Positions 14,883 to 28,616 of a stretch of 45,032 bases of DNA are shown piece by piece. The stretch's first letter is position 1; each line of letters starts with the position of its first letter. A program made the position numbers and the translations under genes. The notes beneath the pieces are model-generated. The model made no database searches, had not been told where the DNA came from, and was given only the letters and a program-made list of their open reading frames with translations. Where the stretch lies: assembly GCA_947442505.1 (NCBI GenBank), contig CANEVR010000014.1, positions 1-45,032 on the forward strand. The letters run 5' to 3'. This DNA is from Flavobacteriales bacterium. Lineage in GTDB: Bacteria; Bacteroidota; Bacteroidia; Flavobacteriales_D; Sanyastnellaceae.

Positions 14883-17786
14883 TTACTTACTTACTACAAA
14901 CTTTACAGTTGAAGTTTCAGAACCATTTGAAACTTTAACGTGATACATTCCATTAGAAAGCTCATTGTTGAATTCAATCATTTTGTTGATTGAACCTTCA
15001 GCAACGATGTTTTCTTTTTGGATCATTCTGCCAGTAGCATCCAAAATCTCAACGCTCAAGTTACCTTCGAAGTTGGTTACAGACAACTGTACCATTTCAC
15101 CGTTACTTGGGTTAGGATAAAGAGCAATGCTAGCATTGTTCAAAGTACTTGTTGAAATTGTTCCTTCGTTCTCCAAAGTAGGCATTCCAGCTGAGGCTAA
15201 TGTGCGCGCACAAGCAGGAGTTGCAGTGAAAGCAGTGAAAGAGTTATCAGCATGCTTAGCACGGATTCTAACGTCATAAGTTTGACCCAAAGCAACACCA
15301 GAAATAGCAGACATAGCCAAGATTCTTGATCCACCTACAGCACCATTCACAGAGGTAGCAATACCAGCTGATGGCAATACTTGAGTGAACTCCCAATTGT
15401 ATTGAGAAGCACCGCAAATTGAACGGTTGGTAGCCAAAGAAGAAGTCAAACGTTTGTAGGCAGGACATTGGTCAGAAGCACGAACAGTCAAAGCTGCTTC
15501 AGGAGCCAAAGTCACAGGACCTACAATAGTTCCGTTAGCAGTGATTGGAGTCAATGTTCCAAATGCGTCAGGAAGATTGTAATGAGCATCAACTGTTACA
15601 TAATAAGTGCTGTTTGAAGTTCCCAAGTTGGGAGCAACAATTTTACCCAATTGACAAACTGTAGAAGCTACAGTAGCGCTTGCACCTGCAGGGATAGCAA
15701 ATGACCAATCAGCAACTGAACCATTTGAAGCATTAGCTTCAACGTTGAAACGCTTAACAGTGTATCCAGATGCACCTGAACGGAACTTCGCTTTGAAGTT
15801 TTGACAAGTGTTAGCAAAGATTCCAGTATTGTTGGTGTATACGTTGATGTCTGTCTGGCTACCACGCAAGAATGCGATACGCATTGAAACTGTACCAGGA
15901 GTACTGTTGTTATTACGAACGCAAACAGAATAGTTATCACCTGCGGTCAAACCATCAAACAACAAAGTCTCACTACCACCATCAGTAGCAGCACCTTGAG
16001 CACCAGGATGAACATCATTTTCAACTGCCATAGGAATCAATTGAGATCCGCTAGTTGCAGGAGTTTCAAAGATAGCTAAGTCATTGTCATCAGCTACTGA
16101 AGAAGATCCAGTCAATTGGATACGTACAGCATTTGATTGAGCAACGAAGTTGTACCAAAGCTCCAAACCGATACCCGGATTTTCAACAGTGTTGGTACCA
16201 TTGGCCAAGTTTACAGAAACGTTGGATTGAGAACCAGTGTTGTAAGTTCCGATATTCAATACAGGAACGCTAGCATCAAAACCAGAAGAAGAACAAGACA
16301 AATCTGAACCAGAACAATCTTCGTCAATTCCGTTTCCGCATACGTCTGTAGCACCTGGTTTGATAGCAGAGTTAGTGTCATCGCAATCACCAGCAGCAGT
16401 AGCATAACCAGCACCTGGGTTAGCACACAAAGATTGTGCTGTTCCAGTACCGTAGTTATCGCCATCTGCGTCAGTGAAGTAATTGTTGAAAGTCAAACCG
16501 TTGTCGATACCACCAGTACAGTTGTCATCAACACCGTTACAAATTTCGTTTGCACTTGGGTTGATGGCTGAATTGGTATCATCACAATCTGTGTTATTGG
16601 TAACGAAACCAGCACCTGGATTAGAACAAGAGTTGTTGGCTGTTCCAGCACCAAAACCGTCACCATCAACATCAGCAAAATAATCTACAGCTGTTGAAAC
16701 AACGGTAGTAATGCTGTTACTTGTAGCAGATCCAGAGGCATCGCAACCTCCAGCAGTCATTACAACAGAAACAACATCGTTGTTTGCCAAAGCAGCGTTT
16801 GTATAAGTAGCTGCATCAGTACCAACGTTGGTTCCGTTTAACTTCCACTGATAAGCTGGAGTACCACCGTTTGTAGGAGTAGCGGTGAAAGTAACAGAAG
16901 TACCAGCGCAAATGCTGTTATCAGCGTCGTTAGAAGCAATCACAACTGAAGGAGTTGCTCCGGCAGTTCTAGTTAAAGTTGGGTGAGTCAATTGGTTTGC
17001 ACCAGGAGTTCCGTGAACATAGTTCTGAGCAACACCTGTAGGGCTCAACAACTGAATATTCAATGTAAAAGTGAAGGTTCCATCAGTGGTGAATTGTCCA
17101 ATCAAAACTTTGTTTGAAGATGTAGCACCAACGATACCTCCCAAAGAGGCGATAGATCCATTGTTTACAGTGATTGACCCCAAAGCATTTCCTGCAGTCA
17201 AAGCGTCCAAAATAGAACCGCTCATACCAAGTGTGTTTGGTGTAACATAAGTTGTTCCAGAGGAAGCCAACATACCATCTTTACCTGAAGCTCCAGTGAT
17301 TTGAGTACCGAAACATCCACCAAGGGTGTTACCCAAGATAGCTTGAGCATGTGGGTTAGCAATACTTCCATCGGTATCTTCATCCTTTGGAACACCAACT
17401 TTATTGGCAGCAGCACCACCGGCAGTGATCCAAGAATCGATCATTGCTGTGTGCTTTTTCGAGTTTAAAACTGATGTTGTAGGACCAGCTTGAGCATCGT
17501 AGTTCTCATCGTTGTAGAACGCTGTAGTTGTTCCAAAAGTCAAATTCTTGGAAGCATTTCCAAACATTTGAACAAATTTATAACCTGCAGCCATGTCAAC
17601 ATAGACACGGTAAGTAACTGCACCTTCTGTCAAAGGAATAGAATATCCCTGAGAGACAGTGTAGGCAGCATCTGCAGCATTGGCTTGATAGTACCTCTCT
17701 ACGATGATACCTTCCAAACCTTGGGCTTGGGCTGAAGTGATTCCAGCCATCATTCCCAATCCTAGGATGTATTTTTTCAAGTTCAT
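14883..17786 (-). CDS. T9SS-secreted multidomain protein with MopE-type metal-binding repeats
   Basis: A 967-residue exported protein. In order: signal peptide (about 1-21, ending AQA); an unnamed secreted domain (about 22-270) with GLEGIIVERYY, VTYRVYVDM, MFGNASKNLTF, GVPKDEDTDG and VLIGQFTTDGTFTFTLNI; an Ig-like domain (about 285-365); two MopE-type repeats (about 368-498) with DVDGDGFGAG, DCDDTNSAINP and CNGVDDNCTGGID; a fibronectin/sandwich-like region; and a type A T9SS sorting domain (about 890-967, YPNPSNGE to VKFVVSK). The unnamed domain is shared with the products at 21124, 25570 and 26655. It follows the gene at 17834 after a GC-rich hairpin and ends at the 14835 terminator. Likely surface-anchored and calcium- or metal-stabilised; ligand unknown. 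Confidence 0.88.
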   Translation of the reverse strand: MNLKKYILGLGMMAGITSAQAQGLEGIIVERYYQANAADAAYTVSQGYSIPLTEGAVTYRVYVDMAAGYKFVQMFGNASKNLTFGTTTAFYNDENYDAQAGPTTSVLNSKKHTAMIDSWITAGGAAANKVGVPKDEDTDGSIANPHAQAILGNTLGGCFGTQITGASGKDGMLASSGTTYVTPNTLGMSGSILDALTAGNALGSITVNNGSIASLGGIVGATSSNKVLIGQFTTDGTFTFTLNIQLLSPTGVAQNYVHGTPGANQLTHPTLTRTAGATPSVVIASNDADNSICAGTSVTFTATPTNGGTPAYQWKLNGTNVGTDAATYTNAALANNDVVSVVMTAGGCDASGSATSNSITTVVSTAVDYFADVDGDGFGAGTANNSCSNPGAGFVTNNTDCDDTNSAINPSANEICNGVDDNCTGGIDNGLTFNNYFTDADGDNYGTGTAQSLCANPGAGYATAAGDCDDTNSAIKPGATDVCGNGIDEDCSGSDLSCSSSGFDASVPVLNIGTYNTGSQSNVSVNLANGTNTVENPGIGLELWYNFVAQSNAVRIQLTGSSSVADDNDLAIFETPATSGSQLIPMAVENDVHPGAQGAATDGGSETLLFDGLTAGDNYSVCVRNNNSTPGTVSMRIAFLRGSQTDINVYTNNTGIFANTCQNFKAKFRSGASGYTVKRFNVEANASNGSVADWSFAIPAGASATVASTVCQLGKIVAPNLGTSNSTYYVTVDAHYNLPDAFGTLTPITANGTIVGPVTLAPEAALTVRASDQCPAYKRLTSSLATNRSICGASQYNWEFTQVLPSAGIATSVNGAVGGSRILAMSAISGVALGQTYDVRIRAKHADNSFTAFTATPACARTLASAGMPTLENEGTISTSTLNNASIALYPNPSNGEMVQLSVTNFEGNLSVEILDATGRMIQKENIVAEGSINKMIEFNNELSNGMYHVKVSNGSETSTVKFVVSK

Positions 17787-17833: not shown

Positions 17834-19555
17834 TTAGTTACAAGTTGTTCCGAATGCTGGAGCAAAAATCAAGAAGTCATCAACGTCAGTGTCACCATCA
17901 GTATCCAAGTCAGTAGGACAAGCTGTGATACCTTGGATGTGTCCCAATACTTGAGAGTAAGACCAATCAGACAACCAGTTTTGACCTGGGTTTGAAGAGA
18001 AAGCACCACGGTATGGAGCAGCTGTAAAGAAACCATCTACTGGAGCTGTTGGGCAACCAGATACAGACAAAGCAGGATTTGGAATTACATCAGGCTTAAC
18101 AGTGTAAGCATTGGTAGTTGTGTTTAAAGTAAACGCATAGCTAAAACCAGGAAGAGTGTTACCAGATACCAACTCGTTCATGTCAGTAGTGTTGAATTGA
18201 GTATAATCAGTAGTACCAGAAGCAATAAGTGTTGCTCCCAAAGAACCTTGAGTCAATGGGTTGGTGATACCAACAAATGTGTTACACTTGATTTTCAATG
18301 ATTGAGAACCGTTACCATTTGTAGCTGAAGCTGGACCAGCGATGTTGGTCCAGTTGTGCCAAGACTCACCGCCAGCAGCAAATGAACGCGTTCCGCTCAA
18401 TGACTTCACCAAGTTTAAACCACTCTTGAAGTTAGCAAATACTGAATTGTAGATTTCACCTTCAGTCAATTCTTTTGCATTGATAGCAGACAATGAAGAG
18501 TTATCTACAGTTTGTGTGGTTTTTCCGTTTCCAATGATTGTTGCATTGTAAACTACAGGATGTGTACGAGGCAATACGTTTGACTTTTGGTCATCAGCAT
18601 CAATCTCAAAACCGTTGTCGTTGTCAGGGCTAGATGTAGCATCTGACTTCATACCAAACAAGAACTGAGCTTTACCAGTCCAACCCAAGTCAAAGTCAAA
18701 CATGTCATCGTTACCGAAGATGGTTGAACAATACTTCAAGTTAACAGTACCACCAAATACCTCGATGTTGTCATCGGCGTTAGATACAATCTCAACGTGC
18801 TCGATAGTAGTTCCACGACCAACTGAACCCAATGTCAAACCGTTCATCTCTCCACCTACGGTCAAGATTGCTCCTGCGTGACGGATAGAAACATAACGGA
18901 AGATACCTGAATTATCGTTGTCATTAAAAGTCTCACCGGCAGTTAAATTAACACCGAATTGATCTTGAACGTTGGTAGTTTGAAAACCTTCCAAAGTACC
19001 CAATCCATCAGCAAAAGCCAATTTACCATTAGCAGCACCTACAACGAATGGACCGTTAGCAGCCAATGTCAAGTTGTTGGTAGCTTTACCATTGATAGCA
19101 ATACCACCCCATTTACCAACGTTTGAAATGGCGTAAGTTCCGTCCATTGGATCTGCTTGAGCTGTGAAAACAATTGGACAAGACTCAGTACCATTAGCGA
19201 TGATACGACCACCTCTAGAAATAACCAAAGCTGTAGCTTCTGCAGCAACTGCGTTTGGCGCTCCTTTGATAACTGTTCCTGGCTCAATGGTTAAAACTTG
19301 ACCAGAAGGAATGTAAATTTTCTTGTCCAAAATGTAAGTGTTTTGGCAAGTGAAAGCAGCACCAGTAGTCATGTCTCCACCGTAGGTTCCGCTGATTGCA
19401 GTGTAACCTGGCATAGAAGAAACAATAACTTCTGGACGAGAAGCTACGGGTGGACATCCACACTCAGCTCCCAAATTCGACTGTGCAACAGAAGCTGTTG
19501 CAACAAATGACAATGCCATAGCGATGACTTTGTTCAAATTGTTTAATTTTTTCAT
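17834..19555 (-). CDS. Secreted beta-helix-like protein with C-terminal dockerin-like motif
   Basis: A 573-residue exported protein of a family common in Bacteroidota. Signal peptide about 1-25 (MKKLNNLNKVIAMALSFVA, then SVAQ). The body has the family landmarks YIPSGQVLTIEPGTVIKGA, LVISRGGRIIANGT, VGKWGGIAINGKA and, near the end, YRGAFSSNPGQNWLSDWSY, a pattern consistent with a right-handed parallel beta-helix. The last residues (DLDTDGDTDVDDFLIFAPAF) resemble half of a dockerin or EF-hand calcium loop ending FGTTCN; no T9SS sorting domain is visible. The ATG at 19555 is chosen because it gives a clean signal peptide; an in-frame start at 19600 would add 15 residues in front of it. Adhesin or carbohydrate binding is possible, unproven. 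Confidence 0.82.
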   Translation of the reverse strand: MKKLNNLNKVIAMALSFVATASVAQSNLGAECGCPPVASRPEVIVSSMPGYTAISGTYGGDMTTGAAFTCQNTYILDKKIYIPSGQVLTIEPGTVIKGAPNAVAAEATALVISRGGRIIANGTESCPIVFTAQADPMDGTYAISNVGKWGGIAINGKATNNLTLAANGPFVVGAANGKLAFADGLGTLEGFQTTNVQDQFGVNLTAGETFNDNDNSGIFRYVSIRHAGAILTVGGEMNGLTLGSVGRGTTIEHVEIVSNADDNIEVFGGTVNLKYCSTIFGNDDMFDFDLGWTGKAQFLFGMKSDATSSPDNDNGFEIDADDQKSNVLPRTHPVVYNATIIGNGKTTQTVDNSSLSAINAKELTEGEIYNSVFANFKSGLNLVKSLSGTRSFAAGGESWHNWTNIAGPASATNGNGSQSLKIKCNTFVGITNPLTQGSLGATLIASGTTDYTQFNTTDMNELVSGNTLPGFSYAFTLNTTTNAYTVKPDVIPNPALSVSGCPTAPVDGFFTAAPYRGAFSSNPGQNWLSDWSYSQVLGHIQGITACPTDLDTDGDTDVDDFLIFAPAFGTTCN

Positions 19556-19692: not shown

Positions 19693-19723
19693 AAAAAAAA
19701 ACACTGACGTAACATCAGTGTTT
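19693..19723 (-). terminator. Terminator of the TonB-receptor operon
   Basis: Nine-base arms AAACACTGA and TCAGTGTTT with a 7-base loop; on the minus strand the stem runs into nine T residues (A at 19693-19701 on the plus strand). It is 36 bases past the stop of the last operon gene at 19759. The 19556-19758 gap also holds the upstream region of the 17834 gene, in which I saw no convincing -7 box. Confidence 0.9.
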
Positions 19724-19758: not shown

Positions 19759-20403
19759 TTATAGAAATGTCAAGCCCAATCGCATGCCTAAGTTCATAAA
19801 ACCAAACTGCCCATTGTCGCTTTTGATGAGTTGAGGGAAATGTTGTCCCACTATGCCTATGGAAAGAATGTGCTTTTCATCAGGCTGAAATTGTTTAGCC
19901 AATTCCACTTGATAACCCCATCCTTTGGTATCTGATTTCTCCTTTGCAATCTGAGTCTGGTTGTTGTTTAATAATTGATAATTTACTTGCTCTCGAAGTC
20001 CATAGAAGTATTGACCACCCAAGCCCAATGTCCAACCGCTTTCACTGAATCGGTAATTCAACATAACGGGAATTTCAATGCCTCTCAATGATTTCGAAAT
20101 CATGTTGACTGCATCAATACCAATACTATCATTTTTGTAGGACATACTTTTGAATTGAGCCCCAAGCTGAAAGTTTAAATTTTTACCAATTGGATATCCA
20201 AGACCTAAACCAAAAGATTGCCCCAATCCAGCAGAACTGGTGTTTTCCATTTTATCGTTAAAGGTCTCAGATTCATTTGAAAAACGTGGATCATTGAATT
20301 GGAGTGAATATGCCAAATGCCAGTTCAATTTTTTAGTTTGACCAAATACATTAGATACGCTGAAGAGAAGCAGTAGTAATGGAAAAAAATACCTTATTTT
20401 CAT
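19759..20403 (-). CDS. Outer-membrane beta-barrel protein
   Basis: A 214-residue exported protein: signal peptide about 1-21 (ending NVFGQ), then alternating amphipathic strands such as FGLGLGYPIGKNLNFQLGAQ, EIPVMLNYRF, WTLGLGGQYFYGL and a C-terminal MNLGMRLGLTFL ending in hydrophobic residues, as in bacteroidotal small barrels of the OMP_b-brl class. It is the last gene of the eight-gene unit, 4 bases after the FISUMP lipoprotein gene. Probably an 8- to 10-stranded barrel; its role with the TonB receptor is inferred only from the operon. Confidence 0.8.
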   Translation of the reverse strand: MKIRYFFPLLLLLFSVSNVFGQTKKLNWHLAYSLQFNDPRFSNESETFNDKMENTSSAGLGQSFGLGLGYPIGKNLNFQLGAQFKSMSYKNDSIGIDAVNMISKSLRGIEIPVMLNYRFSESGWTLGLGGQYFYGLREQVNYQLLNNNQTQIAKEKSDTKGWGYQVELAKQFQPDEKHILSIGIVGQHFPQLIKSDNGQFGFMNLGMRLGLTFL

Positions 20404-20407
20404 GACT

Positions 20408-21118
20408 TTATTCTTTTATACAACGGATACTCATTCCGTAGAGTTTAGATGTTTTTGAACGGAGAATTCGGGTTTGTTGGTAATCAATGTAGCGGTAATA
20501 TCCTTCAGTATTGTCTGATGTGGAGGTCCACCAAAATGCGGTATTAGCTCCACTATTCATAACATTCAAAAGAGTAATACATCCCCCCGGTCTGGCATTG
20601 AATCCATATTTATCGTTTCCGTACAATGGGCTAAATTCAGGCCAACCACGGGAGTATTTCGACGTCAACAAATTGGCTTCCTCAACTCCTCTCCAGCCAA
20701 AGGCGTTGGCCGCTTCAGTACTCATACCAATGTGTTTTTCCAAAATTTTCCAATCTTCGTCACTCGGTATTTTCCAGCCTTTGGGTGCAATTTTTCTTGC
20801 ATCTTCAATACATTGAAAGTTATACAAATAACCGAAAAGAGAATCGTTGTGAAAAGTATAAGTACTTTGATTTTGGGAGTTCCAGGCAGATAATGCATCT
20901 TCTTGAGACAGGTATTGAATGGTATCGTCATTTTGAAAACGATTGGATGCCAAATTTTCTGCCATCCACCATTGATCGCCAATCTTCACCGTTGTAAATG
21001 TATGTCCGTTGTTATCTATCCCCGTTCCATACTCGATGTCTATGGTATCATTTTTTTCTTTATTGCATCCCAGGAAAATAAGGGTGCTCAGCAGTAAGTA
21101 ATGTGTTATTCTTTTCAT
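20408..21118 (-). CDS. FISUMP domain lipoprotein
   Basis: A 236-residue lipoprotein with lipobox FLGC (Cys18) and a FISUMP domain (the Fibrobacter succinogenes major paralogous domain). Landmarks: TVKIGDQWWMAENLA (about 44-58), the GYLYNF region, APKGWKIPSDEDWKILE, GFNARPGGC, FWWTSTS and the terminal YGMSIRCIKE. FISUMP proteins are surface or periplasmic lipoproteins of unknown biochemistry, related to C-type-lectin-like folds. It starts 5 bases after the stop of the 446-residue protein gene. As the only lipoprotein in a TonB-receptor operon without SusD, it could serve as the surface lid or binding subunit; this is inference. Confidence 0.85.
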   Translation of the reverse strand: MKRITHYLLLSTLIFLGCNKEKNDTIDIEYGTGIDNNGHTFTTVKIGDQWWMAENLASNRFQNDDTIQYLSQEDALSAWNSQNQSTYTFHNDSLFGYLYNFQCIEDARKIAPKGWKIPSDEDWKILEKHIGMSTEAANAFGWRGVEEANLLTSKYSRGWPEFSPLYGNDKYGFNARPGGCITLLNVMNSGANTAFWWTSTSDNTEGYYRYIDYQQTRILRSKTSKLYGMSIRCIKE

Positions 21119-21123
21119 GATAA

Positions 21124-22464
21124 TTATATCTTGAATAAGGTCAAAATTTGTGTTCCCAATGGAGCAGTAATTTGGATGTAGTATACACCGGGCATCAGAT
21201 GACTGATGTCCATCGTGTTGTTGTAATTAATCCCTATATCATTAACGTTTTCTGTTGATATCATCGTTCCAAATGCATTGAACCATTGAATCGTAATATT
21301 TCCATTTTCTGGCTGAACCACGTTGATTCTGACTTGATCCTCAGCAGGATTGGGATAGAGCCCGCATTCAAAAGTACTAACCAATAAATCAGGACAAACT
21401 TCTGTGATATTGCGGTTGTTGCAATCGCCTGGGTAGCAGCATAATTCCTCCATCATAATGTTTGCTTTAGGATCATAATTGCAAGCAAGAGAATCCGTGC
21501 AGCCGATGATGGCTTTGTTCAGACAACTTCCTTCTTCAAAGCAAATGAAAGCGGGGCTGTATTCCAAGTAACTGGGGTCGTTACATCCGCAAGCATAAGG
21601 ATAGGAAAGGAAAGGGTTGTATAGTTGATTCTCACCAATGAGGGTGTCTTGTGCAACATATTCAATGGATTGTAGATTTCCTTCATTGTCAAAAAACACA
21701 ACTTCTAAATTGATGTTAAATGAAATTTCTCCAGCAGTGGTAAGTTGAGCAAGCATAACATGATTGCTGTCGGTTACAACACCAGAGTAGGGAACACTTG
21801 GGGCTAGATAAAATTGGTTGCTTTCATAAGAATTTCCCGGCACAATGGATCCGAAAATCGTACTATCAATGCCAAAAGTAAGATAGTCAGTTGTTAAAAA
21901 ATTAGACCAGGTCGCAGCGGCCGTCACCATTGTATCAATTCCATCGGCCTGGGTAAGAGCTAAGCCCATTTCACTGTTTTGATTGTTCATCAATCCTTGT
22001 GGTAGCATTTCACTGCCTCCATCACTATTAGAACCACCGATAAAAGAACCGTTGGTATCTTGATTTTTAGGAAGACCAAAGTATAAATTGGGGCCTTGTT
22101 TAGCTACTTGACCAATTGTTAGATAAGTGTCCAAGGCAACCAAGCTTTCTCCCAATCTTGGTTTAAGAAAATCTTTACCAAATGATTTGCCTTCAGTGGC
22201 ATGATTAAAAAACGGTGCACTGCTGCTGATGGTAAATGCATGGTTGGCATCTCCGAAGATTCTAGAAACAGCGCTTCCAGGCAATAATTTGGCATAGATG
22301 CGATAAGTGGTTGAACCTTCCAGGAGTATTCCACCTGTAGTATCGGTAGCATCATCAGTATCACTGATGTAGTATTTCTCAATGAAGAGATTTTGCAATT
22401 GTGAAAAGCTTTGTTGGGCCATTAATCCCAAGCAAAGGCCCAAAAATAATTTTAGTGCTTTCAT
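21124..22464 (-). CDS. T9SS-secreted protein of the shared YRVY family, with Cys-rich module
   Basis: A 446-residue exported protein. After a signal peptide (about 1-21) comes the same unnamed domain as in the products at 14883, 25570 and 26655: LFIEKYYISD, TTYRIYAKL, IFGDANHAFTI, PFFNH, GLPKNQDTNG and HVMLAQLTTAGEISFNINLE. Then a cysteine-rich segment (about 290-350) includes CGCNDPSYLEY and IIGCTDSLACNYDPKA, a motif frequent in secreted proteins of marine bacteria. The C-terminus is a type A T9SS sorting domain (YPNPAEDQ to the final TLFKI). Its ATG overlaps the TonB-receptor stop as ATGA, indicating translational coupling. Probably displayed on the surface; ligand unknown. Confidence 0.85.
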   Translation of the reverse strand: MKALKLFLGLCLGLMAQQSFSQLQNLFIEKYYISDTDDATDTTGGILLEGSTTYRIYAKLLPGSAVSRIFGDANHAFTISSSAPFFNHATEGKSFGKDFLKPRLGESLVALDTYLTIGQVAKQGPNLYFGLPKNQDTNGSFIGGSNSDGGSEMLPQGLMNNQNSEMGLALTQADGIDTMVTAAATWSNFLTTDYLTFGIDSTIFGSIVPGNSYESNQFYLAPSVPYSGVVTDSNHVMLAQLTTAGEISFNINLEVVFFDNEGNLQSIEYVAQDTLIGENQLYNPFLSYPYACGCNDPSYLEYSPAFICFEEGSCLNKAIIGCTDSLACNYDPKANIMMEELCCYPGDCNNRNITEVCPDLLVSTFECGLYPNPAEDQVRINVVQPENGNITIQWFNAFGTMISTENVNDIGINYNNTMDISHLMPGVYYIQITAPLGTQILTLFKI

Positions 22465-25400
22465 ATTTTGTACTGAATAGAAAGTTGATAAGTTGTACCA
22501 TAACGGAAGTTGTCGTAATCATACCAGCCATCTGTGTTGGTGATATTACCTGCTTCATTGATGCGGTCAATTTGATAAGATCTTCTGACCGCTGTATTTA
22601 AAATGTCCCTGATGGTAAGGCTAGCTGACCAATGGTCATTAATTTTTTTGTTGACTTTAAAGTCAATCATGTGACGTGGCATTTCATAAACATCAGGTCT
22701 ACCTACAATGGCACCCGCGATAACCAATCTCGGTCCTTGAACATTGTAAGATACGGTGGCACTTAATCCTAGGCTGTCAGCGGTGTAACTTAGGATACTG
22801 TTAATGAGGTATGGCGCTTGACCAAACATGGGCCTTCTCAAAGTATCCAATGGTGTATAAACTTTCTTTCCATCAATAACTTGTAAATCTTTTCTGATGA
22901 ACTCTGCCTCAGATTTAACCAATGTTACGTTGCTTTTGAATTCCAATGCGCGTGTGATCTGAATGTTTCCTTCCAATTCCAATCCCAATACTGTTGACTT
23001 CTCAATATTGTCCCAGGTAATACCCGCTGAGCCAAATCCCATTTCGATATGGTTATTAAAGTCCTTGTAAAAAGCACTAATCGATGCATTGTGTCCTTTT
23101 TTGAAATAGGTTTCTGCACGGAAATCAAAGTTGTGAATGGTCACCATTTTTAAGTCAGAATTTCCATATATCAATGTTCTGAACTCATTGTCAACGATAG
23201 CAGCATCACTTAATTCCCTGATGCTAGGACGCGCAAGCGATTTTGAGTAGTTGAATCTCAAGTTGGTTTGTCCCAATGAATCTGAAACCAACTTGTAAAC
23301 CAAACTAGCATTGGGTAGAAGATCCAATTGTTCAATGGATGCAGGATTGACTAAAGGAAACCCACCCACATTCTCTCTTCTAAAATCATCTTTTTCATAA
23401 CCTTGGGCATAGTAGCTGTCCACATCAACAAAGATGTCCGTTTGTTCAGCTCTTAAACCACCAATTAATCTGAGACTAGATGATTTCTCATAGTCAAAAA
23501 ATGCATAGGCGCTGTAAACATCGCTTTGTCCAAAGCTGTGATCCCTGGCAAAATTGTTTCGGATGTAATAGTAATCTAAGGTACCATCACGCATAACAAA
23601 TTTGGAAGGATCTAGGAATTGATCAATGTTACCAGAGGTGAATGTCTCAAGATTCAGATTGTTTCCTTGAAATAATTTGTACTCATCGTTGTCTATCTTT
23701 CTATAGTTTCTTAAAGCAGATCCTCCCCAAAATATTTTTCTTGTTAATCCTTCTTTTTTCAACTTATGAATGGGTTGAGAGAAGTCAATTCTGCTGTCCA
23801 AGAGATTTTCGTTAAGATATCTGTAGAATCTTCTAATACCCTCTCCAAAGGTGGGCGCAAATGTGTAGGCCTGAATTTCATTGTTGACGAGGTTGTAACT
23901 ATATTGATTCACTTTGAAATCTGGTGCAATACTGTTGGCTTTGGTATAACTAGCATTGAAGTTGATTTTTAGTTCTTTCTCTGGAAAATAATGTTCCGTG
24001 CTCAGTTGATGAATCAATTGTTTTCTCTGCTCATAGAATATGTTGTTGACAACAGAAATATCCTGCTCATCAATTGTTCCATTTGGAGAAATAAAAGGCT
24101 TTCCTTCATATTGCGCGACATCATTGGTTCCAATGATATTTGGCATATATAACAAACCAATTTTATGATTGGGGCTTAGTTTGTAATTGGCATTCAACAG
24201 AACGTTCCAAGAATTGGTTTCACGACTGATGCGGGCATAGTCCTGACGGTCTATGGGGTAATCCAAAGTTTCATCGCCAACGCGTTGTGAAGATCCGTTG
24301 GGGTCATAACGGTAATTGGTACCGTATCGCATACCAATGAAGTATCCCAATTTTTTTCCAAATAATTTGGTTTCATTTCCTATGCTGAAATTCTGACTAA
24401 AATTCATGGGAGCTTTTTCCACACGAGCATTCCAGTTGTTAGCAAAGCCATTGTTATAATCTGTTCCATCTGGGTTAATCAAAGCATATGCCTGTGGTTT
24501 GTATTGACTGGTGTACTCTTGTTTAGCGGCGGCAACTGCAGCGGGATTATTGAGTTGATTGGCAGGAAGTAAACCCAGTTCTACCAATCCCAAAGCCAAG
24601 TAATTATCAGCTGTTGCATTTCCATCTGCCCATCCATGAATTCCAAGGTTGGAGTAAAAGTCGCCCAAACCTAAGGATACCAATTCGTCATATGTAGTTG
24701 GAGCCAAATTAGGTACTATAATTTCGTCTTTTTCCCTTCTTCTCATTCCATTGTCAAAGCCCCAGCGATCTGTTTTACTCTTGGCTGAGGTAATAAAATC
24801 TTTGAAAGTGACTTGGGGATTATAACCAAACTGTGATTCAACATTGATGCTCAATTGATCTGGATAATCTTTTGTTTCAACAGATATATAAGCACCAGAC
24901 CAATCAGAAGCCAAATTGGATTGTGCAGTCTTTGTGATGATGATATTATCAATCAAACTAGAAGGAAAGATGTCCAATTTAATGTTGTTGGTCAATGGGT
25001 CTAGCGTTGGTATACGAGATCCATTCAAAGTTGTCTTGACATAGCGATCACCGATACCCCTTACGGTAATCAAACCTCCTGACGTTGATACACCTGAAAC
25101 CCTAGCTATGGCATTGACCACGTTTTGGTCACCTGTCTTTTTCATGGTTTCAGAAGAGATGTAATCAATGGTAGTGGCAGAATTCATCTTCACCTTTTCC
25201 ATGTAGGTATCATTGGACTTAGCCACTTTACCTACAATGTCAAGTCCTTTTACAACATAGGAACTGTTAAACAAGATAATGTTCCTAACGAGTGTTTGGT
25301 TGTTTTTTAGGATAACTGTATCGACATTGGTTTTGAAACCAGTCATGACATAATTGATGGTGTAAGGTTTGTTGTTAGGGATGTTTAACTCATACAACCC

Positions 25401-25565
25401 ATCAAAATCTGTTTTGGACAGAATAGATTGATTCTCGATGACCACGACAACTACACCAAAAACAGGTTCTCCTTTCTCATCGGTGACTTTGCCTTTGAGA
25501 ACTCCTTGAGCTAAGCCAATGGTGGAGATAGAAATGAAAATAAGGATGGAAAGGAGACCTCTCAT
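22461..25565 (-). CDS. TonB-dependent receptor with CarboxypepD_reg domain, no SusD partner
   Basis: A 1034-residue outer-membrane transporter energised by TonB-ExbBD. Signal peptide about 1-20 (MRGLLSILIFISISTIGLAQ); a CarboxypepD_reg-like domain (about 21-105) with GVLKGKVTDEKGEPVFGVVV; a plug domain (about 120-245) with ISSETMKKTGDQNVVNAIAR and LITVRGIGDRYVKTTLNGSR; and a 22-strand-type barrel to the C-terminal YGTTYQLSIQYKI. The ATG at 25565 is chosen because it starts the signal peptide and lies 4 bases after the preceding stop; an in-frame start at 25610 would overlap that gene. No SusD-type lipoprotein is encoded; four T9SS or secreted paralogs surround it. The ligand is unknown; metal, peptide or glycan are all possible. 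Confidence 0.95.
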   Translation of the reverse strand: MRGLLSILIFISISTIGLAQGVLKGKVTDEKGEPVFGVVVVVIENQSILSKTDFDGLYELNIPNNKPYTINYVMTGFKTNVDTVILKNNQTLVRNIILFNSSYVVKGLDIVGKVAKSNDTYMEKVKMNSATTIDYISSETMKKTGDQNVVNAIARVSGVSTSGGLITVRGIGDRYVKTTLNGSRIPTLDPLTNNIKLDIFPSSLIDNIIITKTAQSNLASDWSGAYISVETKDYPDQLSINVESQFGYNPQVTFKDFITSAKSKTDRWGFDNGMRRREKDEIIVPNLAPTTYDELVSLGLGDFYSNLGIHGWADGNATADNYLALGLVELGLLPANQLNNPAAVAAAKQEYTSQYKPQAYALINPDGTDYNNGFANNWNARVEKAPMNFSQNFSIGNETKLFGKKLGYFIGMRYGTNYRYDPNGSSQRVGDETLDYPIDRQDYARISRETNSWNVLLNANYKLSPNHKIGLLYMPNIIGTNDVAQYEGKPFISPNGTIDEQDISVVNNIFYEQRKQLIHQLSTEHYFPEKELKINFNASYTKANSIAPDFKVNQYSYNLVNNEIQAYTFAPTFGEGIRRFYRYLNENLLDSRIDFSQPIHKLKKEGLTRKIFWGGSALRNYRKIDNDEYKLFQGNNLNLETFTSGNIDQFLDPSKFVMRDGTLDYYYIRNNFARDHSFGQSDVYSAYAFFDYEKSSSLRLIGGLRAEQTDIFVDVDSYYAQGYEKDDFRRENVGGFPLVNPASIEQLDLLPNASLVYKLVSDSLGQTNLRFNYSKSLARPSIRELSDAAIVDNEFRTLIYGNSDLKMVTIHNFDFRAETYFKKGHNASISAFYKDFNNHIEMGFGSAGITWDNIEKSTVLGLELEGNIQITRALEFKSNVTLVKSEAEFIRKDLQVIDGKKVYTPLDTLRRPMFGQAPYLINSILSYTADSLGLSATVSYNVQGPRLVIAGAIVGRPDVYEMPRHMIDFKVNKKINDHWSASLTIRDILNTAVRRSYQIDRINEAGNITNTDGWYDYDNFRYGTTYQLSIQYKI

Positions 25566-25569
25566 GGAT

Positions 25570-26658
25570 TTATTTTTTGATGAAGGATAGTTTTTGAATC
25601 TGACCGTCATTGTTGATGTTAACGGTATATAGGCCTGTAGCCAATTGGGCTACATTCAATGATACATTTGACTGTTGCGTATTCTCAGAAAGTACCAAAG
25701 ATCCGGTGGTGTTGTATACACTGATTTGTCCAATGGATTGTTTCATGTTGTTTTTAATAACAACGAAATCAGTCGCTGGGTTAGGGAAAATGCTCATGCT
25801 GTTTCTTTGTCCGATATAAGAAATACCATTGGGTTCTTCTGGTGTGCTCTCGTAGATCAAAGTGCTATCAGTCAATTCTCCATTCTCAGGATTCTCGGCA
25901 ACAAAAATCTCACTTCCTCCTACCTGAGGGGTTCCCAACTGAAGATTGAGTTTGAATGAAAAAATGCCATCTGTAGTGAATTGTCCGATTAATACCATGT
26001 TACTTGCAGTAACGCCAGTAACGCCACCCAAAGCTGCAATCGTTCCGTTGTTAGTGACAAAATCAGAACCAGGTGTTTGATCAAACAAATCCAACTCTGA
26101 ACTGATACCTAAAATATTTGGGTTAATTGGGGTACCTGGCATCATACCATCTACACCATCAGTTCCTGTTACAGGCAATCCCATGGCCGTTGTAACATTG
26201 GCAATAAGACCATCGTTGTTTCCAATTGTTCCATCTGTATCTTCAGTTTTCAAAACACCCATTTTGGTAGCCGCAACGCCACCTACAGTCAAATAGGTGT
26301 CAATCATCTGTGTGTTTTTCTTGGTGTTGTTAACACTGGTTCCCTGGTAAACAGCAACACCGTAGTTGGGATCGTTGAAGAAAGCGGTAGTGGTGTGAAT
26401 CTCAAGTGGATGAGCTGCATTTCCAAACATCTGAATAAAGCTGTAACCATCTTGTAAATCTGCGTAAACCCTGTATGTGGTTGATCCAACATGGAGTGGG
26501 TAAGTAGCGAAGTTGTCCGCTGCATCAATTGAATCTGCTGCATCGGAAACGTAGTATTTTTCAACAACAATTCCTTGCAATCCTTGCGCTTGAACTTGTT
26601 GGTTGGAAACCACAGCCATTAGGCTTAGTCCTGTGAAAATGGAGTAAATATTTTTCAT
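25570..26658 (-). CDS. T9SS-secreted protein of the shared YRVY family
   Basis: A 362-residue exported protein made almost only of the unnamed shared domain plus a sorting signal. Signal peptide about 1-24 (ending VQAQG); domain about 25-255 with GLQGIVVEKYY, TTYRVYADLQDGYSFIQMFG, TTTAFFNDPNYG, GVLKTEDTDG and MVLIGQFTTDGIFSFKLNLQ; type A T9SS domain at the end (IFPNPATDFVVI to LSFIKK). Clearly the closest relative of the N-terminal part of the 967-residue protein. Its ATG overlaps the stop of the 283-residue protein gene as ATGA and its stop is 4 bases before the TonB-receptor ATG, so it is embedded directly in front of the receptor. Confidence 0.87.
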   Translation of the reverse strand: MKNIYSIFTGLSLMAVVSNQQVQAQGLQGIVVEKYYVSDAADSIDAADNFATYPLHVGSTTYRVYADLQDGYSFIQMFGNAAHPLEIHTTTAFFNDPNYGVAVYQGTSVNNTKKNTQMIDTYLTVGGVAATKMGVLKTEDTDGTIGNNDGLIANVTTAMGLPVTGTDGVDGMMPGTPINPNILGISSELDLFDQTPGSDFVTNNGTIAALGGVTGVTASNMVLIGQFTTDGIFSFKLNLQLGTPQVGGSEIFVAENPENGELTDSTLIYESTPEEPNGISYIGQRNSMSIFPNPATDFVVIKNNMKQSIGQISVYNTTGSLVLSENTQQSNVSLNVAQLATGLYTVNINNDGQIQKLSFIKK

Positions 26659-27506
26659 GATTTGTTGTGTTTATTATTTTTTCTTTTCTTTTCTTTTCGG
26701 GTTGTTCCTTTTAGGATGGGGCAGAGTATTTCTCCTTGTTGTGGGTTGCTCCAAACATATTTAATGGATTTTCCTTTTGGAGTGCCTACCATAATGTTCA
26801 ATTCAAAGTCCAATTCTCCTGCGGTAGTTAATTGAGCAATCAAAACATGATTAGAACCAAGGGAGTCGAGACCAATAGATCCTTTACCCAAACATGCCCA
26901 TGCACCATTGTTAATTTCCAGGTGATCGGATTTTGTTACCATCATTAAGTTTTTTAATGTTGAATCCAATTGGAACAAATTGACAATCGGCAATTTTTCA
27001 GTTTCATACATACCATCACGTTCTTTCAAACTGTATTCCATCCATTTGGAATCGTTGGTCAGATAATTTTCTTCAAATTTCTCAGAGAGAAGGTTGTCAT
27101 CCGTATCCATTTTTTTGGGGACTCCCAAGAATCGCTCTCCAGCTGCCCCTGCGGTGAACCAAGAATCAAGCAATGTGATATTTTTTGCAAGACTTCTTTC
27201 GGGAATAACATTAGGGTAAGTATTTCCAATTCCTGCGTGGTTATAAAATGCCGCGTCTGAATGGAAAATCAAAGGATGTGCAGAGGTTCCGTAGGCGGCT
27301 TGAAATCTGTAGTTGGGAGCTAAATCGAGGTATACTCTATAAGTTTTCGATTTATTCTTCAATTCGCCACTGATTTTCCCAGCCCTACTATCCATTTCAT
27401 TGGACTGATAATAATGCTCAATGTAAATGCCCTCAAGACCTTCAAAAGTCTGAGACAAAGAACATGTCCAGATGAGAGCAAAAAGAGCGATAAACAGATT
27501 TTTCAT
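26655..27506 (-). CDS. Secreted protein of the shared YRVY family lacking a sorting domain
   Basis: A 283-residue exported protein (signal peptide about 1-18, MKNLFIALFALIWTCSLS). The whole mature part is the unnamed domain: LEGIYIEHYYQSN, KTYRVYLDLAPNYRFQ, YGTSAHPLIFHSDAAFYNH, GVPKKMDTDDN and HVLIAQLTTAGELDFELNIM. In contrast to its three relatives it ends in a short basic tail (TTRKEKKRKNNKHNKS) with no YPNP-type T9SS domain, so it would stay in the periplasm or associate with a partner. The tail is encoded over a four-copy pentanucleotide repeat, leaving open that a sorting domain was lost. The ATG at 27506 is preferred to a TTG at 27512. It is 6 bases after the MopE-repeat gene. Confidence 0.82.
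   Translation of the reverse strand: MKNLFIALFALIWTCSLSQTFEGLEGIYIEHYYQSNEMDSRAGKISGELKNKSKTYRVYLDLAPNYRFQAAYGTSAHPLIFHSDAAFYNHAGIGNTYPNVIPERSLAKNITLLDSWFTAGAAGERFLGVPKKMDTDDNLLSEKFEENYLTNDSKWMEYSLKERDGMYETEKLPIVNLFQLDSTLKNLMMVTKSDHLEINNGAWACLGKGSIGLDSLGSNHVLIAQLTTAGELDFELNIMVGTPKGKSIKYVWSNPQQGEILCPILKGTTRKEKKRKNNKHNKS
26679..26698. repeat. Pentanucleotide microsatellite (TTTTC)x4
   Basis: Four perfect TTTTC copies (GAAAA on the coding strand) lie inside the 3' end of the 283-residue protein gene. A unit gained or lost by slippage would change the frame of the last ten codons. In the frame that would match the next gene a TAA precedes its ATG, so a simple fusion is not expected. Confidence 0.7.
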
Positions 27507-27512
27507 TTTCAA

Positions 27513-28616
27513 TTATCTTGAAATCAGGAAGGATTCTGTGTGGGTGCCAAGAATGATGTTATATATGCCATTGGCCCATTCTCCAACATTCAATTGAAGG
27601 CTGCGCTCAATTTCTCCATCAAACATTTTTTGGCCCATTTGATTGATGATGATAAGTTTGCTGTTCAACGGTTGATCAACAGCACCAATGGTGATCCACT
27701 GGTTGGCTGGGTTAGGGAAGAGTTGAAGAAGCATTGATTCATTTTCTAATACATGAGTACTTATTTCACCGTCGCAGTTTTCATCAATGTCGTTATCAGG
27801 AATTTCAACTGCGTTAGGGTTAATGTTGCTATTGGTATCATCACAATCGGTATCCGTTTCAGTTCCGCAAGCAGCCATTGTAGTGCTACCAAATCCATCC
27901 AAGTCCAAATCTTCATAAAGGAGTAAGGCATCGTCACAATCATCACTGTTTTCAACAAATCCCTGAATGGGAGCGCAGGCATAGGCTGCAACATTGGCAT
28001 CACCATATCCATCAGCATCAGCGTCGGCGAAGAAAGTAATCAACACAAACTCATCCACTTCATCATTGCAATTGTCATCGATATCATTACAAATCTCAGT
28101 TTGAAATGGGTATATGTTTACGTCACTATCGTTGCAATCACCCGTCTGAACTTCCCCGCATGCTGATAAGATTTCACTGCCATAGCTGTCGTTATCCAAA
28201 TCTTCGAAAAGAATCAAAAAGTCATCGCAATCCTCACCGTTATTTACATAGCCGAGAGGCATGTCACAAGCCAAAATCGCTTCGTCGATATTACCAAATC
28301 CGTCAAAATCGGCATCGAGATAATAGGTGTTTTGTACAAATTCATCAATCTCTCCGTCACAATTATTGTCTACATTGTCACAAGCCTCATTGGCACCTGG
28401 AAAAATGAAGGCATTGTTATCTGAACAATCGTCAGCATTGTTTACAAATGAAATGATTGGGTTGCAGAGCAAAAGAGAGTTATCAGGATTCCCAAATCCA
28501 TCAGCGTCAGCGTCAAAAAAATAGTACATTGGATTAGCGCAAGTGTCCAATTCCATGGCGTAAGATGCTATACTGGAAGACAATAGGAGGAAACAAAAGC
28601 TGATAATTGTTTTCAT
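27513..28616 (-). CDS. MopE-type metal-binding repeat protein with T9SS domain
   Basis: A 367-residue exported acidic protein. Signal peptide about 1-20. Four to five copies of a MopE-type putative metal-binding motif follow (about 28-285), each with an aspartate ladder such as DADADGFGN, DADFDGFGN or DADADGYGD, then CDD or CSD and a block such as ACDNVDNNCDGEIDEFV. The C-terminus is a type A T9SS sorting domain (LFPNPANQW to FLISR). MopE of Methylococcus gave the family its name and binds copper, but the aspartate loops here look equally suited to calcium. First gene of the eight-gene unit. I could not identify a strong promoter: TAACATTG at 28679-28686 on the minus strand is a 7-of-8 candidate. 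Confidence 0.87.
   Translation of the reverse strand: MKTIISFCFLLLSSSIASYAMELDTCANPMYYFFDADADGFGNPDNSLLLCNPIISFVNNADDCSDNNAFIFPGANEACDNVDNNCDGEIDEFVQNTYYLDADFDGFGNIDEAILACDMPLGYVNNGEDCDDFLILFEDLDNDSYGSEILSACGEVQTGDCNDSDVNIYPFQTEICNDIDDNCNDEVDEFVLITFFADADADGYGDANVAAYACAPIQGFVENSDDCDDALLLYEDLDLDGFGSTTMAACGTETDTDCDDTNSNINPNAVEIPDNDIDENCDGEISTHVLENESMLLQLFPNPANQWITIGAVDQPLNSKLIIINQMGQKMFDGEIERSLQLNVGEWANGIYNIILGTHTESFLISR

Follow-up and report, generated by a model that had tools for sequence, protein, structure and literature searches.

Gene content of the locus

We analyzed a stretch of 45,032 nucleotides (hereafter, the window) from contig CANEVR010000014.1 of a Flavobacteriales bacterium (assembly GCA_947442505.1), and focused on a minus-strand gene cluster built around a TonB-dependent receptor. 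The interval 28616-19759 contains seven genes, which encode, in this order, a MopE-repeat protein, FAM-A, FAM-B, the receptor, FAM-C, a FISUMP-domain protein and a small outer-membrane barrel (Table 1). FAM is a working name for a secreted protein family without a database name. The conserved cassette extends downstream past this interval, to 14883, and takes in two further genes, encoding a beta-helix protein and FAM-D.

The original prediction counted eight genes between 28616 and 19759, and its own list also sums to seven. Its other structural statements were borne out. The genes are tightly packed, with short gaps and overlaps throughout once the receptor is started at 25565; three paralogs of one secreted family lie in the interval, as confirmed by BLASTP; and the cluster ends at a terminator-like inverted repeat (19723-19699). 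The longest receptor ORF, from 25610, has 1049 aa; a start at the internal ATG (25565) yields the 1034 aa assigned previously, in agreement with the 1012-1042 aa of most relatives.

Table 1. Features of the receptor cassette in the window
Feature	Position	Strand	Evidence
MopE-repeat secreted protein, 367 aa	27513..28616	-	Pfam Cu-binding_MopE E 3.8e-22; Por_Secre_tail 26.0 bits (cut-off 27)
FAM-A, 283 aa from ATG at 27506, no type IX signal	26655..27506	-	BLASTP to other members E 4e-23 to 9e-32
FAM-B, 362 aa, FAM domain and type IX signal	25570..26658	-	Por_Secre_tail E 4.5e-14
TonB-dependent receptor, 1034 aa	22461..25565	-	Plug E 2e-10; CarbopepD_reg_2 E 4e-10; TIGR01782 E 9e-46, under its cut-off
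FAM-C, 446 aa, FAM domain, Cys-rich motif, type IX signal	21124..22464	-	Por_Secre_tail E 1.7e-11
FISUMP-domain putative lipoprotein, 236 aa	20408..21118	-	Fib_succ_major E 1e-38
Small outer-membrane beta-barrel, 214 aa	19759..20403	-	OMP_b-brl E 3e-9
Terminator-like inverted repeat	19699..19723	-	11 pairs, 4 G-C, T-run
Beta-helix protein (ElpS/FII-like), signal peptide by eye, no lipobox pattern	17834..19555	-	Homology, fold model
Dockerin-like single EF-hand tail	17837..17920	-	Tail profile E 4.6e-14 (profile includes this sequence)
FAM-D, 967 aa, FAM domain, MopE repeats, type IX signal	14883..17786	-	Pfam scan, BLASTP to family

A conserved receptor cassette without SusD

The cassette was compared across 63 non-redundant loci including the window; many of these are cut, and FAM served as bait in retrieving most (among them loci L013-L088). 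This gene-neighbourhood analysis, proposed along with the original prediction, found the partners conserved around the receptor and the gene order largely fixed. The gene directly after the receptor encodes a FAM protein in 53 of the 54 loci where it is known, the exception being L061, in which the next ORF is another receptor piece; the gene before the receptor is a FAM gene in 54 of 60 loci. The beta-helix gene is found downstream of the receptor, behind a gap of 66-854 bases, in 40 of the 63 loci, and is followed by a FAM gene in 36/36 loci where that neighbour is known. At L171, it is the opposite flank of the receptor that carries the beta-helix gene (cut), together with a large FAM gene.

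Separate searches with the FAM profile and with the receptor in 100 genomes, including that of the window, gave strong matches in the same 27 genomes (E 1.7e-40 or better for FAM; 9.4e-140 or better for the receptor). The remaining 73 have neither at that strength (37 with weak, short FAM-like matches, many with sister receptors). In a tree of the FAM family (FastTree, local support only), the 52 rows of the FAM-C position form nearly one clade, with 2 label changes versus a shuffled mean of 47, and the other main FAM positions also cluster, less cleanly. The four FAM paralog positions are old.

The cluster had been described as lacking SusD, and we found no SusD match among the ten window proteins scanned (Pfam, E up to 0.1). 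The single SusD_RagB (PF07980) match in the genome lies on another contig (C4:21020-21289), adjoined there by a SusC-like receptor (G000:C4 about 21000-25760, locus L169). The cassette receptor aligns with that receptor mainly over about 150 N-terminal residues and has no second full-length match within its own genome; a sequence search for its solved relatives returned only the SusC N-terminal domain. The SusD fold is mainly helical. The two modelled parts of the cassette, the FAM domain (a beta-sandwich) and its neighbour (a beta-helix), do not resemble it, and a SusD hidden in the cluster was rejected on the lack of a profile match and the beta-sandwich model of the FAM domain. The cassette shares with SusC/SusD and PusC/PusD a TonB receptor with a carboxypeptidase-regulatory domain and a surface partner, but differs in having no SusD.

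In a tree of 70 receptors and two outgroups (a quick search, for which long branches were warned of), all 49 receptors that have FAM nearby group in a single clade (SH-aLRT 99), and the 21 receptors without FAM form a separate one (SH-aLRT 91). These 21 sister receptors comprise 20 places hand-picked from the receptor search and one in L070. Related receptors without the secreted genes, named in the original prediction as evidence against it, therefore do exist in the sister clade, and none turned up inside the receptor's own clade. In 20 of the 21 cases a beta-helix gene (P0009-type) is present in the fetched stretch, L151 being without one. The constant partner of the receptor across its relatives is thus the beta-helix protein. 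Comparison shows that the pair of receptor and beta-helix protein is conserved and SusD-less, and that FAM is present in all 27 genomes with this receptor clade.

Some loci show unusual arrangements. At L070:3988-8810, a divergent pair of sister-type receptor and beta-helix gene lies beside a full FAM cassette, as if by duplication or by the bringing together of two systems. At L030:17922-20723 and L042:18188-20720, a different secreted protein follows the small barrel in the usual beta-helix slot, and both genes reach the end of the fetched stretch. The L030 protein has a calcineurin-like metallophosphoesterase domain, and the stretch ends inside its gene, so that a beta-helix gene may lie beyond; in the cut L042 homologue the phosphoesterase domain was not found. 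Loci titled Chryseobacterium gleum or Chitinophaga pinensis (L013, L025, L031, L045-L047, L050 and others) carry nearly the same cassette as Flavobacteriales MAGs, and these contig titles are probably placeholders or wrong names.

The beta-helix protein and its probable published relatives

The beta-helix gene lies in the same cluster as the receptor, three genes apart. The model of its product has pLDDT 88; Foldseek returned nothing under E 0.001 (best E 3e-3), and a second structure aligner placed it, at Z up to 20.6, with beta-helix proteins that include tailspikes, alginate epimerases and polygalacturonases. Plasmid homologues were found in 22 records, Pseudoalteromonas and Sphingomonas among them. 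In both plasmid regions that were opened, a TonB receptor directly follows the homologue, and in Sphingomonas type II secretion genes come next. The Sphingomonas homologue, beside these genes, is 36% identical over 260 columns (E 9e-31). The Pseudoalteromonas receptor that accompanies a beta-helix homologue matches residues 126-1004 of the window's receptor (23% identity, E 2e-45).

Pairs of this kind have been published. In Caulobacter crescentus the gene order is cc0170 (elpS), cc0171 and type II secretion system (T2SS) genes, and the co-occurrence of cc0170 and cc0171 was held probably to reflect a functional interaction (Le Blastier et al. 2010, PMC2996285). The likeness to ElpS (CC0170)/CC0171 consists in the adjacent TonB receptor, the lack of SusD and a phosphate-starvation context, and the gene order described there is the one we observed in Sphingomonas for the homologue of the window's protein (PMC2996285). 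The release of ElpS, a lipoprotein, depends on type II secretion, whereas the window protein has no lipobox and carries a dockerin-like tail (PMC2996285). The cassette also adds four FAM proteins, three of them with type IX signals; ElpS is set beside it by description and not by sequence.

In Flavobacterium johnsoniae, FI and FII are predicted lipoproteins of polygalacturonase-like fold encoded beside TonB-dependent transporters (TBDTs); their gene clusters are strongly induced by low phosphate, and FII lies with phoBR (Lidbury et al. 2020, PMC8115612). Like the cassette, these loci (PUSIII and PUSIV) place a TBDT beside a protein of pectin-lyase/polygalacturonase-like fold, with no SusD; as PUSIV lies with phoBR, so do several sister loci here carry OmpR-type regulators (PMC8115612). 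They differ in the predicted lipoprotein anchor, and no FAM protein is reported for them (PMC8115612). The kinship with FI and FII is suggested by fold and gene order, not by sequence. A simple lipobox pattern was seen in 6 of 20 sister homologues and in a single one of the 43 from cassettes, which is not that of the window. The sister homologues are in part lipoprotein-like or have a type IX-like end, and cassette homologues as a rule show neither feature.

Homology and gene order thus support the cassette as a probable variant of the ElpS/FII-type pair of receptor and beta-helix protein. The pairing itself is already published; the new elements are the FAM family and the tail of the beta-helix protein. 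The general statement that characterised Bacteroidota uptake systems pair the receptor with SusD was too broad in view of these published SusD-less pairs (PMC2996285, PMC8115612).

It had also been proposed that surface proteins exported by type IX secretion take SusD's place; the best SusD-like candidate is the beta-helix gene, just outside the interval then considered. In that scheme, which we consider unlikely, type IX-exported FAM proteins would replace SusD and bind substrate over the receptor, with the beta-helix protein incidental. The nearly invariant placement of FAM-C directly after the receptor, and the near-single clade that this position forms, are what the scheme would lead one to expect, and the beta-helix gene, beyond its gap of 66-854 bases in 40 loci, may be transcribed apart. 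However, the wider family of the receptor keeps the beta-helix partner without FAM, and tandem FAM-like domains occur in large proteins of a genome that lacks this receptor clade (G042, see below), which fits a general connector better than a cap devoted to substrate.

A possible link to phosphorus also comes from the neighbourhood of sister loci. An OmpR-type regulator stands beside the pair in five of them (L158, L159, L162, L166 and L168), two also having a histidine kinase; L160 contains a Na/Pi cotransporter with PhoU domains; and in three other sister loci a calcineurin-like phosphoesterase is encoded within two genes of the pair. More weakly, we infer that the substrate may be phosphorus-bearing organic matter.

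The FAM family

The four FAM members, FAM-D included, are related by pairwise BLASTP with E 2e-18 to 3e-63, and the genome's four copies all lie on this contig, between 14883 and 27512. The FAM domain is covered by no Pfam or NCBIfam family. A type IX C-terminal sorting domain scores over cut-off in FAM-B, FAM-C and FAM-D, and no type IX signal was found in FAM-A or the beta-helix protein with Pfam and NCBIfam. Of the secreted genes of the interval, for which type IX export had been claimed, FAM-B and FAM-C carry a clear signal; the MopE gene falls just below cut-off, and in FAM-A the signal was not found, so that not every paralog has one. Of the 65 rows that stand second upstream of the receptor (duplicate loci kept), 55 have fewer than 60 residues after the FAM domain.

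A likeness of FAM to cohesins was proposed ahead of any fold result. The FAM-B domain was modelled as a beta-sandwich (pLDDT 96.1), and in a second structure aligner 18 of the 50 listed rows are cohesins (Z 3.7-4.9 over 110-129 residues). Sequence searches gave no useful solved relatives for FAM or the beta-helix protein. The window FAM proteins, like the rest of their genome, have no PF00963 (cohesin) match, and FAM as a cohesin homologue by sequence is without support (hhalign probability under 1%). We infer from layout, co-occurrence and a weak fold match, not from sequence, that FAM may act like a cohesin. Cohesins of Ruminococcus have been described as too divergent for standard models (PMC11557425).

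The FAM-D proteins of several loci (L173, L174, L175, L060, L066, L074 and others) contain cohesin-like stretches downstream of the FAM domain. The window's FAM-D has no such stretch. The FAM-D of L174 also has a weak Dockerin_1 match, and a whole-protein Pfam scan of the L173 and L174 proteins did not list Cohesin. FAM-D is long and variable, with MopE, Ig-like, PKD and cohesin-like stretches, and adhesins are among the weak fold matches of FAM. These adhesin-like traits could mean that the FAM proteins, together with FAM-D, make up an adhesive layer on the surface, with the receptor only co-regulated, but FAM is strictly paired with a single receptor clade across 27 genomes, in a largely fixed gene order, which makes this quite improbable.

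The dockerin-like tail

The ends of the cassettes' beta-helix homologues read C-x-T-D-x-N-x-D-G, after which come the start of a helix and a second Cys. This EF-hand motif is present in 41 of 43 cassette homologue ends (one more deviates, and one frame ends early), versus 2 of 20 sister homologue ends (L152 and L153). The only NCBIfam family that matches such tails is dockerin_GC, which was hit by three of four peptides (not by the window's own tail), all under cut-off; Dockerin_1 matches of tails other than the window's are also under cut-off. Over its cut-off, the curated dockerin_GC model was found in 37 of the 100 genomes, all 37 assigned by their E-values to family f1. Doubled tails in f1 genomes reach this cut-off, and several of the sites coincide with finds of our tail profile (e.g., G042:C5:52912-53076); the doubled tails of two G042 proteases gave no dockerin_GC match at E 0.1. 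In open-licence PMC literature, we found neither the term 'GC-type dockerin' nor a comparable dockerin/cohesin cassette in work on Bacteroidota, TonB, type IX or Planctomycetes.

Genome-wide distribution of FAM domains and tails

In the 100 genomes, a FAM or FAM-like domain together with a strong tail was found in 61, FAM only in 3, a tail only in none, and neither in 36 (Fisher p 5e-24, ignoring kinship). The three FAM-only genomes (G002, G004 and G005) are drafts, and G002 misses only the tail, its beta-helix gene apparently being truncated by the end of a contig. For most f1 genomes the best tail E-value was set to a placeholder of 1e-12; the real values are all below 1.2e-8, and the classes are unchanged. 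The numbers of FAM domains and tails per genome show rank correlations of 0.92 overall, 0.86 in f1 and 0.56 in the 38 f1 genomes labelled cassette-free, which are rough values because the number of candidates scored in each genome was capped (at most 83 for tails and 27 for FAM). Three genera (g28 and g29 outside f1, g20 within it) include members that have both parts as well as members that have neither, and all are concordant; in these contrasts the tail arrives with the cassette, so that they are no test of free pairing. One member of g20, G025, has a single weak tail (E 5.7e-5).

The layout was examined in one tail-rich genome, G042. Its proteins of 2978, 1422, 1994 and 1540 aa contain 5, 4, 4 and 3 FAM-like domains, respectively, and the first three of them end in a tail. 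The domain E-values were obtained with a profile built from those very proteins; the best value of an independent search was 3e-10, and hhalign tied the FAM-like domains to FAM with probability 99.7. A type IX signal was found in one of six FAM-like proteins scanned. Nine tailed G042 proteins include two M12B-type proteases, one endonuclease I, one protein with starch-binding modules, three with FG-GAP repeats, one plastocyanin-like protein and one without any match. The whole may be said to resemble a layout of anchoring scaffold, adaptor scaffold and cargo. At L259:1604-11982, also in G042, four consecutive genes encode tailed secreted proteins, three with FG-GAP and ASPIC/UnbV domains, which look like an expanded cargo cluster. 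In another genome, G010, two cassette FAM proteins themselves end in doubled dockerin-like repeats (L170:10426-13043).

A cohesin-dockerin system with M12B peptidases, the 'planctosome', has been proposed for freshwater Planctomycetes (PMC6461901). The G042 set is similar to cellulosomes and to this system in its multi-module scaffold-like proteins and in the EF-hand tails on secreted enzymes, including M12B-type proteases (PMC6461901). It differs in that FAM is not recognisable as a cohesin and part of the scaffold-like proteins carry type IX signals; the version in the window is merely a small one, linked to a TonB receptor.

Canonical cohesins were considered as the partners of the tails. 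PF00963 is found in 87 of 247 genomes of the phylum, and at E 0.1 or better in 15 of the 61 f1 genomes. The other 46 f1 genomes have no match, as is the case for the tail-rich G042, G017, G046 and G060 at the same threshold, and a canonical cohesin was for this reason ruled out as the general tail partner.

The tail could instead be a sorting or anchoring tag read by other export machinery, and the FAM-like domains ordinary surface modules of the same lineages. The tail occupies the place of the type IX signal, and nine tailed G042 proteins have no type IX signal by Pfam; moreover, some proteins carry both FAM-like domains and tails, so that co-occurrence could follow lineage. Yet type IX signals are still abundant, with 45 to at least 150 matches per genome in 16 tail-rich genomes, and a genome-wide replacement of the type IX signal by the tail is not supported. 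Of the 39 genomes outside f1, four have strong tails, and these are precisely the four with FAM, which makes a genome-wide reader unlikely there; the reader of the tail should therefore lie in the cassette. We regard the tag explanation as somewhat unlikely.

Accessory genes and transcription signals

The FISUMP gene is present in 44 and the small barrel in 28 of the 63 loci, many of which are cut. The upstream MopE gene was found in only 8 of them, and the MopE protein is for that reason classed as an accessory, as the FISUMP protein and the small barrel probably are. The metal-dependent capture through MopE repeats that had been suggested was accordingly rejected as a core function.

The region contains 11 terminator-like sites versus 9.0 +/- 3.2 in shuffled sequences, so that the number of sites is not significant; the repeat at the cluster end is one of two with 11 pairs. 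A sigma-70 scan gave 24 sites versus 33.9 +/- 5.6 in shuffles, with none between 28930 and 28616 and a weak one at 19651-19622, upstream of the beta-helix gene. The Bacteroidota-type promoter motif was not found upstream of the MopE gene or the beta-helix gene. The gap of 66-854 bases in front of the beta-helix gene may point to a second transcription unit.

Proposed function of the cassette

Our best explanation, a tentative one with a little under an even chance, takes an ElpS/FII-type pair as the base of a surface uptake cassette in which FAM proteins dock the tailed beta-helix protein beside the receptor, perhaps for a phosphorus-bearing substrate. The beta-helix protein would be secreted and would capture or process substrate for the TonB-dependent receptor. 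The type IX system would export and anchor FAM-B, FAM-C and FAM-D, which would act as docking modules. The lipid anchor of its relatives having been lost, the beta-helix protein would be plugged by a calcium-binding dockerin-like tail into the FAM proteins, beside the receptor, and phosphorus-bearing organic matter would be imported at the cost of TonB energy. Of the surface uptake complex envisaged in the original prediction, a conserved SusD-less TonB-receptor cassette with type IX partners has stood; the SusD rule, the metal role of MopE and the identity of the partner have not.

A wider proposal, possible but doubtful, is that FAM and its distant relatives form a new family of cohesin-like proteins and are what the GC-type dockerin tails of this Bacteroidota lineage bind to. 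Cellulosome-like scaffolds anchored by type IX secretion would then display dozens of tailed secreted proteins, and the window would contain this arrangement in compact form, with a single beta-helix capture protein docked next to a TonB importer.

Several observations weigh against docking through FAM. The window's own tail gave no dockerin match in NCBIfam or Pfam, and it is a single repeat. Dockerins have two EF-hand repeats. Co-occurrence was counted on related genomes, and the cassette genomes gain both parts together. On the side of the fold, Foldseek returned nothing for the FAM-B model at E under 0.001, the top row of the second aligner is the unrelated adhesin Als3 (Z 5.0), and a Z under 8 may, as the aligner warns, reflect only a common arrangement. 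The FAM and FAM-like profiles, compared with 51 cohesin stretches from other genomes of the phylum, reached hhalign probabilities of 0.1-0.8%. In FAM-D of G013, G035 and G045, the stretch behind the FAM domain scores over the PF00963 cut-off (more weakly in others), and our own cohesin profile located stretches in further FAM-D loci, along with some weak matches on proteins of other kinds. Such a stretch could be the true tail partner in the cassettes that have one; hmmscan of the whole G035 FAM-D protein did not list PF00963 at E 0.01, and these stretches are not the general tail partner because of the 46 f1 genomes without a cohesin match. FAM-A and the beta-helix protein have no recognised route across the outer membrane; our guess is that FAM-A and the tailed proteins are exported in complex with type IX cargo. 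As to phosphorus, the 71 neighbour proteins scanned in sister loci gave 8 matches to each of two regulator domains, with no background rate, and none of the 10 neighbouring proteins scanned in the window is phosphate-related by name.

SusCD dominates thinking on Bacteroidota uptake, and the cassette represents a SusD-less class with a beta-helix partner and putative docking proteins. If the docking proposal is true, these proteins would explain how a capture protein that lacks a lipid anchor is kept at its receptor. Should FAM bind the tails, one Bacteroidota family would gain a partner for its orphan dockerin-like proteins, of which each genome has dozens, and cohesin-dockerin logic would be joined to type IX secretion.

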